From Acidobacteriota bacterium (lineage in GTDB: Bacteria; Acidobacteriota; Terriglobia; Terriglobales; Acidobacteriaceae), in NCBI GenBank assembly GCA_003225055.1, contig QIAU01000142.1, forward strand, positions 1 through 59,658: a stretch of DNA of 59,658 nucleotides. Direction: 5' to 3'. This document shows positions 27,072 through 29,525 of this stretch, piece by piece (positions within the stretch are counted from its first letter, which is position 1; the number at the start of each line of letters is the position of its first letter). The position numbers and the translations under genes were made by a program. The notes under the pieces were generated by a model. That model made no database searches. It had not been told where the DNA came from and saw only the letters and a list, made by a program, of their open reading frames with translations.

Positions 27072-27293
27072 CTATCCCCGCGTGCGATCTAGGAATTCGG
27101 TATGCCATGCCATCTGGATCGCCTCCAGCTTGCCCTCATTGGACTTTTTGGGATCGTCCTTGAAGCCGGGCAACTGAATGACGTAGCGGTGCAGGTCGGT
27201 GAAGCGCACTTCAAGAGGATTGATCTCAGGATGGGTCTCGGAGAGCAGGATGCCGATATCGTCGGCGTCGTCCCAGGTCAGGTTTTTGGGCAT
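27072..27293 (-). CDS. iscX: Fe-S assembly protein IscX
   Basis: 73 residues from ATG 27293, preceded by GGGAGC. The full family signature is present: LTWDDADDIGILLSETHPEI, PLEVRFTDLHRYVIQLPGF and KLEAIQMAWHTEFLDR. IscX is a small acidic adaptor that binds IscS and acts as an iron-dependent regulator of cluster assembly. It is the intact distal member of the iscR-iscS-(iscU-fdx remnant) locus. With its normal partner scaffold broken upstream, its role here is unclear. Confidence 0.95.
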   Translation of the reverse strand: MPKNLTWDDADDIGILLSETHPEINPLEVRFTDLHRYVIQLPGFKDDPKKSNEGKLEAIQMAWHTEFLDRTRG

Positions 27294-27308: not shown

Positions 27309-27398
27309 AGTTAGGTAGCATTTACGAGCTGGCATTTGGCCCCTGAGCGAGAGTACCGACAGTGGATGGCCAAATGCCAAGTGCTAATTGCTAAGAGC
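27309..27398 (-). repeat. Heptad repeats forming a hairpin upstream of iscX
   Basis: A perfect 11-bp inverted repeat (GGCATTTGGCC 27331-27341 and GGCCAAATGCC 27368-27378) is flanked by 7-nt units on the right arm: GCCAAAT/GCCAAGT/GCTAATT/GCTAAGA (27369-27396). It lies between the ferredoxin remnant stop and the iscX start. Confidence 0.65.
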
Positions 27399-27672
27399 TG
27401 CTTTCTGAAACGTAGTTCCGATTCCAGGACGGAATTTCCACTACAACTTTACCTGGTTTGGTAATCACCGTTTGGCAGCCGAGACGGGAGTTTAGCTGGA
27501 GGTCGGCAGCCAATCACGTTGGTCTGCGGCTTGACCTTGATCTCTAGCTTCATGACGTCGCCGCACTCCCGGCGCGCCCACCAGTCCCACGCCCACGTCG
27601 GGGCTCTTTTTTATCCAGCAAACCTACGTTTCGTGGACTTGAGTAATGGTCAACCTTGTCGGTGTAAGCCAT
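27391..27672 (-). pseudogene. iscU-fdx remnant: scaffold start fused to ferredoxin end, frameshifted
   Basis: Reading leftward from ATG 27672: MAYTDKVDHYSSPRNVGLLD, then after a 1-nt frameshift near 27600 DVGVGLVGAP, then after another near 27570 ECGDVMKLEIKVKPQTN. These are IscU residues about 1-50 including the first cluster Cys region. At about 27511 the text jumps to AADLQLNSRLGCQTVI...KVVVEIPSWNRNYVSE, the C-terminus of ISC-type [2Fe-2S] ferredoxin with its fourth Cys, stopping at 27391. The rest of iscU, any iscA/hscB/hscA, and the first two thirds of fdx are absent. Matches are to remembered E. coli sequences. Both frameshifts are single extra bases in short C or G runs, so sequencing error is possible for those, but not for the large deletion. 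Confidence 0.85.
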
Positions 27673-27691
27673 AATCGACGAGCTCCAAACC

Positions 27692-27777
27692 CTCAGGTTC
27701 GAAAGTTCCAGGTTTCAACGTTTCAAAAGCCGCGTCTTCTATAAGACTTCCCACTGAAACCTTGGCATCTTGAAACC
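27692..27777 (-). repeat. Inverted repeat with 7-8-nt units between iscS and the iscU remnant
   Basis: Left arm AGGTTCGAAAGTTCCAGGTTTC and right arm GAAACCTTGGCATCTTGAAACC can pair over much of their length. Units of 7-8 nt (AGGTTTC, AACGTTTC) recur. It begins directly after the iscS stop. Confidence 0.5.
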
Positions 27778-29046
27778 TTACTTTGCTGCCCACTTCACGT
27801 TCTTCAAATCGACACCGTCTTTGGCCATCTCGTAGAGCGGCGAAAGCTCTCTCAGACGCTCCACTGTCTCGCATACGCGATCGGCCACGTAATCGACCTC
27901 GGCTTCGGTATTGAACCGTCCCAGGCCGAAGCGGATCGAGCTATGCGCCAACTCGTCTCCCGTGCCCAGGGCCTTTAGCACGTAGGACGGCTCCAGTGTT
28001 GCCGAGGTGCAGGCCGATCCACTGGACACCGCCACGTCGTGAATACCCATTAGCAGCGATTCGCCTTCTACATAAGCGAAGCTGATGTTCAGATTGCCGG
28101 GCAGGCGATGCTCCATCGACCCGTTGATGTACACCTGATCGAGGCGAGCCACAATCTTGTCCTTCAGCCGATTGCGCAATCCCGCCAAGTGACAGGCTTC
28201 CTTCGGCATATCGTCTGTGGCGATCGCACACGCCTTACCGAGGCCAACAATTCCAGGCACGTTCAGCGTTCCCGAGCGCATGCCGCGCTCGTGGCCGCCG
28301 CCATCGATGACGGGCGCCAACTGGACTCGTGGATTCCTGCGCCGGACGTAAAGTGCTCCCACGCCCTTCGGCCCATACATTTTGTGCGCCGAAATCGACA
28401 TGAGATCGATGCCCTGCTGGTTGACATCAACCGGCATTTTGCCCACCGCTTGAGTAGCATCGCTATGCAAGATCACGCCGCGCTCCCGGCACAGCTGGCC
28501 GATTTCTTCCATCGGCTGCAGCACGCCAATCTCGTTGTTGGCGGCCATGACCGTCACCAGAATCGTCTTGTCATCGAAGGCGCGCTTCAGATCATCAAGA
28601 TCAAGCAAGCCATCCTTCTCGACCGGCAGATAGGTCACGCGGCACCCGTACTTCTCCAGCCGCTTGCAGGTATCGAGCACCGCCTTGTGCTCAGTCACCG
28701 CGGTGATGATGTGGTTGCCCTTCTCCCTGTACATCTCGGCGACACCTTTAATGGCCAGGTTGTTGCTCTCGGTAGCGCCTGAGGTAAAGATGATCTCCTT
28801 GCTGGTAGCCCCGATCAGTTTGGCGATGCGTTCGCGCGCCGTTTCCACTGCCTCTTCTGCCACCCAGCCGAAGGCATGGTTGCGGCTGGCCGCATTGCCG
28901 AACCTGTCGGCGAAGTACGGCATCATCTCTTCGAGCACCCGTGGATCGACCGGAGTGGTGGCATGGTTATCCATGTAAATGGGCAGCTTGATTCCGTTGG
29001 GTCCTTCGCGCACTTCCCAAGCTGCAGCCTTCGCCTTGGTGCTCAT
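27778..29046 (-). CDS. iscS: Cysteine desulfurase IscS
   Basis: 422 residues from ATG 29046 (AGGAGAG upstream), overlapping the iscR stop by 4 nt (ATGA). PLP enzyme supplying persulfide sulfur for Fe-S clusters and tRNA thiolation. Visible: [35 protein letters not shown], the His-Lys PLP site [16 protein letters not shown], and the catalytic-loop Cys in [17 protein letters not shown]. The C-terminal segment [20 protein letters not shown] is typical. A short N-terminal extension ([18 protein letters not shown]) precedes the usual start. Its own scaffold partner gene downstream is destroyed, so sulfur presumably goes to other acceptors. Confidence 0.96.
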
Positions 29047-29525
29047 AATTGCTCTCCTGCTTCGATCACAACCCTCCGAGCGTGCCCAGCTGGAGCGGCT
29101 TCTTTCGAGTTCCACCCCGTCGGACTTCGTTCAACTGTGAAATCCTGGTGTTCTTTTAGGAGGTCTTCGATGCTGCTGCTGACTTTGCGCAGCGGCTGGC
29201 GCACGGTGCAGCGCTCGGTCTGCCCGCAGGTGCCACGCACCGTGGCGCAAGAGGTGACAAACAGCGGCCCGTCAATGGCTCGGATTACCCCGAAAGCAGA
29301 AATCGTGCGCGCATCCGGCGCCAGCCGGTAGCCGCCATTGATCCCATGCCGGGCGGGCAGCAAGCCGGACTTCACCAATCGCTGCGGGATCTTGGCTAAA
29401 GCTTCCTGAGGCAGGCCGTAGCTGTCGGCGACGTCCTTGGCACGGCAGGCACCTGCGTGAGTGCGCTCGGCCAGATGCTTCATGGCCATCAGCCGGTAAT
29501 CGGCTTTCTTGGTGAGCTTCAGCAT
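29043..29525 (-). CDS. iscR: Rrf2-family Fe-S regulator, IscR-like
   Basis: 160 residues. The N-terminal winged helix is typical of Rrf2 ([20 protein letters not shown] ... [20 protein letters not shown] ... [21 protein letters not shown]). Three Cys in [21 protein letters not shown], spaced Cys-x6-Cys-x5-Cys, correspond to the [2Fe-2S] ligands of IscR (usual x5, x5). It heads the operon, overlaps iscS by 4 nt, and has a palindromic site over its own promoter, which points to autoregulation by cluster status. Confidence 0.92.

Follow-up and report, generated by a model that had tools for sequence, protein, structure and literature searches.

When iscU is deleted from an iron-sulfur cluster (ISC) operon, what becomes of the cysteine desulfurase gene iscS and of the small gene iscX that remain on either side? 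The window analyzed here, a stretch of 59,658 nucleotides, poses this question in contig 18 of a 7.4-Mb genome (G000; 301 contigs, 98.7% complete) from a soil acidobacterium that originally had two Fe-S cluster machines, ISC and SUF. An earlier note on this DNA had described iscR, iscS and iscX as intact and in order, with iscU and the ferredoxin gene fdx reduced to one joined remnant, and this was confirmed by protein family assignment, tblastn and alignment (Table 1). The interval given there, 27391-29525, has to be extended, as iscX falls outside it. The product of iscX matches the PF04384 profile with 101.9 bits (cut-off 25) and is changed at none of 29 conserved columns. The best PDB matches of the window IscS are IscS/NFS1 cysteine desulfurases, its named relatives are found in Candidatus Sulfotelmatobacter and further group-1 acidobacterial metagenome genomes, and it keeps both the PLP lysine K206 and the active-site cysteine C328 (E. 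coli numbering). The last ~35 residues of IscR (29043-29160) are unlike those of relatives and extend to the iscS start, with an old iscR frameshift possibly behind the divergent C-terminus.

Table 1. Features of the ISC locus, with positions in the window.
Feature	Position	Strand	Description
iscR, Rrf2-family regulator	29043..29525	-	160 aa, intact; PF02082
iscS, cysteine desulfurase	27778..29046	-	422 aa, intact; IscU-docking C-terminal tail retained; PF00266
iscU remnant, first 54 codons	27512..27672	-	one 3-nt deletion and two 1-nt insertions
Deletion junction	27511..27513	-	out-of-frame fusion of iscU codon 54 with fdx ~codon 98
fdx remnant (ISC ferredoxin), residues 98-141, ~last 44 codons	27382..27513	-	found by tblastn
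Imperfect inverted repeat	27316..27393	.	26-nt arms, 81% complementary; between fdx remnant and iscX
iscX	27075..27293	-	73 aa, intact

The gap between iscS and iscX measures 484 nt, ~270 nt of which are recognizable as remnant; the earlier figure of ~280 nt thus suits the recognizable part and not the whole gap. With proteins of an intact operon as tblastn queries, IscU residues 1-25 matched 27601-27672 and residues 36-54 matched 27512-27568, while Fdx residues 98-141 matched 27382-27513. A whole-genome search returned the Fdx piece at 27400-27516 (E 3.4e-15, 82% identity). Alignment of the iscU part with L104, L118 and L082 revealed two 1-nt insertions and a 3-nt deletion. When aligned with the iscU and fdx genes of close relatives, the two parts join near 27512, out of frame, and ~2 bp at the junction fit either side (by eye). 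Relatives carry an intact iscU-iscA-hscB-hscA-fdx at this place. Synteny with their iscRSUA-hscB-hscA-fdx-iscX order and the junction itself bear out the internal deletion that had been proposed. The deletion is firmly established, as is the present state of the locus. Part of the repeat at 27316-27393 (TTAGCAATTAGCA-like) is also found 3' of fdx in L118.

Compared with five relatives, the remnant has 40-48 differences at third codon positions and 14-25 at first and second positions (the maximum of 25 coming from the L082 alignment, which overran the junction), versus 30-48 and 6-12, respectively, in ten intact-intact control pairs. As the differences are still mostly at third positions, the loss of iscU and fdx in the window is recent, with most of the divergence predating it and little accrued afterwards. 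Consistent with this, of the invariant IscS columns only 1 of 167 in the core and none of the seven in the tail are altered in the window.

The window locus fails as a functional ISC system, given that the scaffold, the chaperones at the locus (both HscB and HscA genes are absent there) and the ferredoxin are all without an intact gene. Elsewhere in G000, the whole-genome search found no ISC-type iscU besides the 54-codon remnant, and a joint IscA/HscB/Fdx query returned, besides the Fdx remnant, an A-type carrier (45%) and a match to the HscB part that was weak and partial, so that neither hscB nor a second ISC ferredoxin was found; with the same query, the positive controls G076, G049 and G077, whose ISC genes are intact, yielded all three. 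The view that the bacterium relies on SUF for its clusters is supported by the lack of a second ISC-type iscU, of hscB and of an ISC ferredoxin in these searches, and by contig 24, where two SufBD-type genes (PF01458), a SufS-like ORF and a SufU-like gene (PF01592) cluster within ~5 kb. Two further genes deserve mention. Contig 231 encodes a stand-alone NifU_N-type protein of 119 aa (C231:56911-57270, locus L001), and contig 54 a second cysteine desulfurase (C54:14040-15966, locus L289) that is ~50% identical and adjoins mnmA.

By searching 398 genomes of the family, we counted by hand 38 iscU-less genomes of at least 90% completeness, i.e. without any IscU match better than E 1e-25; genomes below 90% completeness were excluded, and G291 (best IscU match E 4e-33) was not classed as iscU-less. 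IscX (PF04384) was found in 85 out of 100 family genomes. Among 61 fetched pieces holding both iscS and iscX (L039-L118; counted by eye), 58 had iscU in between, the other three being L039, L100 and L106. IscX without IscU is thus unusual, as the earlier note had remarked, but not unique to the window: iscX was kept in 10 of the 38 iscU-less genomes (G000, G059, G004, G011, G048, G053, G060, G086, G092 and G344). This number becomes nine without G060, whose contig ends inside iscA; it was kept in both counts, and its IscS was treated as intact-type. The remaining 28 have lost iscX too. An ISC-type IscS (at least 64% identity) was present in 23 out of the 30 iscU-less genomes searched from among the 38, and the other seven had only a 45-50% identical IscS. 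One genome, G014, of the same genus as G086, retains iscS without iscX.

Various stages of loss were encountered in these genomes. L039, from the window's genus, has a gap of 464 nt between iscS and iscX with a Fdx remnant (alignment score 21-22, where shuffles reached at most 16-20); it lacks an iscU piece, and iscR is missing from its place. In L282 (3586-8416; genome G344), the iscS tail is shortened, iscU and iscA are gone, hscA is left with ~60 residues from its beginning and ~30 from its end, and hscB and fdx are open; G344 is an independent, fresh loss in which CyaY is still there. The 213 nt between iscS and iscX in L100 hold no recognizable content, the gap is 85 nt in L121, and in L106 iscX begins 18 nt after iscS. 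An iscA-like gene separates iscS and iscX in L120, while in G004 and G092 the two genes are on different contigs. The IscX of G004 and that of the G012-type genus g12 have diverged motifs in common (L119, L120), and an iscA-like gene is situated near iscS in both.

On a TsaD tree, nine iscU-less rows together with 25 others need nine label changes (7-9 in bootstraps), in a tree of weak resolution, with 18 out of 31 inner branches open, on which the label counts do not outperform those of shuffled labels. A single loss for all nine iscU-less rows, tested as their grouping in one clade, is rejected on this tree (p-AU 0.0254). Clades of the window with L039 and L106 (p-AU 0.128), or with L039 alone (p-AU 0.329), were not rejected. 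In an IscS tree, built by a quick method and with long iscU-less branches, the window falls amid ten rows with intact operons (SH-aLRT 95) and has a terminal branch of 0.15 vs 0.01-0.09 for its neighbors there. By comparison across the family, iscU has been lost several times, and the window represents an early stage.

For E. coli, PMC2854127 places the IscU contacts at IscS residues 309-316, 347 and 379-391, and describes an IscS without ~374-404 as not binding IscU. In our alignment, ten IscS tail columns were at least 90% conserved in 69 rows, where changes averaged 0.06 per row. Three to ten of these columns were changed in 20 out of 22 iscU-less IscS rows, and a single one in the window and in L100. 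K206, C328, H104, D180 and Q183 were invariant across all IscS rows shown. The IscU-docking tail of IscS thus decays after iscU loss, while the catalytic residues that were checked stay. Relative to TsaD, the dN of the window IscS is 0.65-0.79 vs 0.25-0.52 for intact pairs. The corresponding ranges for IscX overlap (0.90-1.20 and 0.54-1.18, respectively), and the window IscX is therefore not clearly changed.

With IscX conserved columns defined on 85 other IscX rows, L039, L100 and L106 together had 4 of 87 IscX cells changed, while for the IscS core the figure was 50 of 753 and for the tail 13 of 30 (IscX vs freed tail, p 2e-6). The older losses L120 and L121 had 19 of 58, 77 of 502 and 16 of 20 such cells changed, and G004 and G092 had 19 of 58, 90 of 502 and 19 of 20, respectively. 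In old losses, the IscX changes cluster around columns 30-35 and 51-53. By these column counts, IscX is held better than the freed surface, but where the loss is old its drift outpaces that of the IscS core.

In PMC5801593, IscX is a protein of unknown function whose occurrence seems tied to IscS, and it is proposed to counter CyaY (frataxin) on IscS in cluster assembly, the leading explanation of its role. The dependence of IscX on IscS, as worded there, fits the genomes studied here. CyaY was found in six out of eight intact genomes tested and in one out of 12 iscU-less genomes (G344); it is absent from the window genome and the other ten. As CyaY is missing in 11 of the 12, its silencing cannot explain the retention of IscX in those. 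Loss of CyaY need not follow loss of iscU, because the intact-operon relative G076 (82% complete) is likewise without it. A 2015 survey states that every genome with cyaY had iscU too (PMC4440780); G344, with cyaY and without iscU, would be an exception to this statement.

The IscX binding site on IscS is known from E. coli (PMC2854127). Its residues Arg220/223/237 were no better preserved where IscX is present (12 of 24) than where it is absent (16 of 39; p 0.60). An effect on the IscX footprint, when comparing iscX-linked genomes to the rest (p 0.048), became null once G004 and G092, with iscX on another contig, were regrouped. As for possible remaining clients of IscS, ThiI searches gave matches in 16 out of 30 genomes, all of them weak, with E values no better than 7e-6 over 57-160 of 197 positions, and none was accepted as ThiI, intact-operon genomes included. 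MnmA was set aside as a client as well, with the second desulfurase lying within ~1 kb of mnmA in 14 out of the 19 genomes found by both searches (distances calculated by hand).

A recent deletion of ~4 kb took all of iscA, hscB and hscA, together with the greater part of iscU and fdx. Judging by gene content, SUF would then be left to make clusters, and IscS and the adjoining IscX may persist beside it as an IscU-free sulfur-donor module, in which IscS would still form persulfide and hand the sulfur to non-IscU acceptors, with IscX binding IscS and tuning its activity. Comparison within the family shows a series, in which iscU is lost, the docking tail of IscS decays, and IscS persists with or without IscX. 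That IscS, with IscX, serves as such a sulfur-donor remnant, newly formed in the window, is in our judgment reasonably probable. Counted against it are the 28 of 38 genomes that also lost iscX, the null IscX-footprint test and the failure to find a client; moreover, the window loss is too recent for post-loss selection to show. As a more tentative extension, which we hold possible though short of probable, IscX might act with IscS in the absence of both IscU and CyaY, e.g. by setting the rate of sulfur hand-over to non-cluster acceptors. The iscS-iscX pairs in iscU-less acidobacteria might then be selected minimal sulfur-donor units, and the tail freed in IscS might naturally mark out the region that is needed by IscU alone.

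The main rival to the sulfur-donor reading is plain decay in progress. In this view ISC became superfluous beside SUF, the deletion would be the opening step, and the iscS and iscX of this genome would be the next to go, having no retained function. The absence of iscX from 28 of the 38 genomes, and of ISC-type iscS from 7 of 30, is what such decay would give, as are the roughly doubled non-synonymous change in the window IscS and the drift of IscX in older losses. Yet the 23 out of 30 genomes that keep an ISC-type IscS, with all checked catalytic residues present, the far lesser decay of IscX than of the freed tail in three iscU-less genomes, and the closeness of iscX to iscS in L106 all speak for something being retained, and we consider plain decay rather unlikely. 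It could also be that a replacement scaffold, namely the contig-231 protein or SufU, takes the sulfur of IscS, with IscX. In favor of this, the contig-231 protein is a PF01592 member (120 bits), but it is present in 12 out of 12 genomes tested (as two pieces in G076), including three with intact ISC, and is hence not specific to the loss; by eye, it has Ala in place of the third scaffold cysteine, and the IscU-docking tail of IscS decays once iscU is lost. This makes a replacement very unlikely. An artifact, with the operon gap as a mis-join and the frameshifts as sequencing errors, has the 301-contig draft and the position of two indels at short homopolymers in its favor. Against these stand the surplus of first- and second-position change in the remnant, the lack of hscB and a second fdx elsewhere in the genome, and the related remnants in other genomes (the Fdx piece in L039 and the hscA ends in L282). 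The occurrence of the same loss in further genomes, at different stages of decay, makes a collapse of the assembly at the locus unlikely, and an error of the kind just described is scarcely credible.

Genomes with iscX and iscS and with neither iscU nor cyaY separate the roles of IscX without laboratory mutants, making the iscU-less relatives a natural experiment on what this companion protein does. With iscU lost repeatedly, nature has likewise run a deletion experiment in replicate, on the question of what in IscS, a hub with multiple partners, is held by IscU only. Our literature searches brought up no earlier account of an iscS-iscX pair lacking iscU, although one may exist all the same.

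Compared to the E. coli-type operon iscRSUA-hscBA-fdx-iscX, intact in e.g. L047 and L104, the window shares the order and strand of iscR, iscS and iscX, and has the iscU and fdx remnants at their usual places; unlike it, the window lacks scaffold, chaperones, IscA and ferredoxin, and thus cluster assembly by the ISC route. Stand-alone cysteine desulfurases also act as sulfur donors, e.g. in YrvO-MnmA pairs, and as in these a desulfurase is kept in the window without an adjoining scaffold gene. Unlike YrvO, the window IscS is of the ISC type and linked to iscX, and the mnmA-linked desulfurase is a separate gene on contig 54. Finally, as in the modulation of CyaY on IscS by IscX proposed in PMC5801593, the window has IscX and IscS side by side, but here without either IscU or CyaY.
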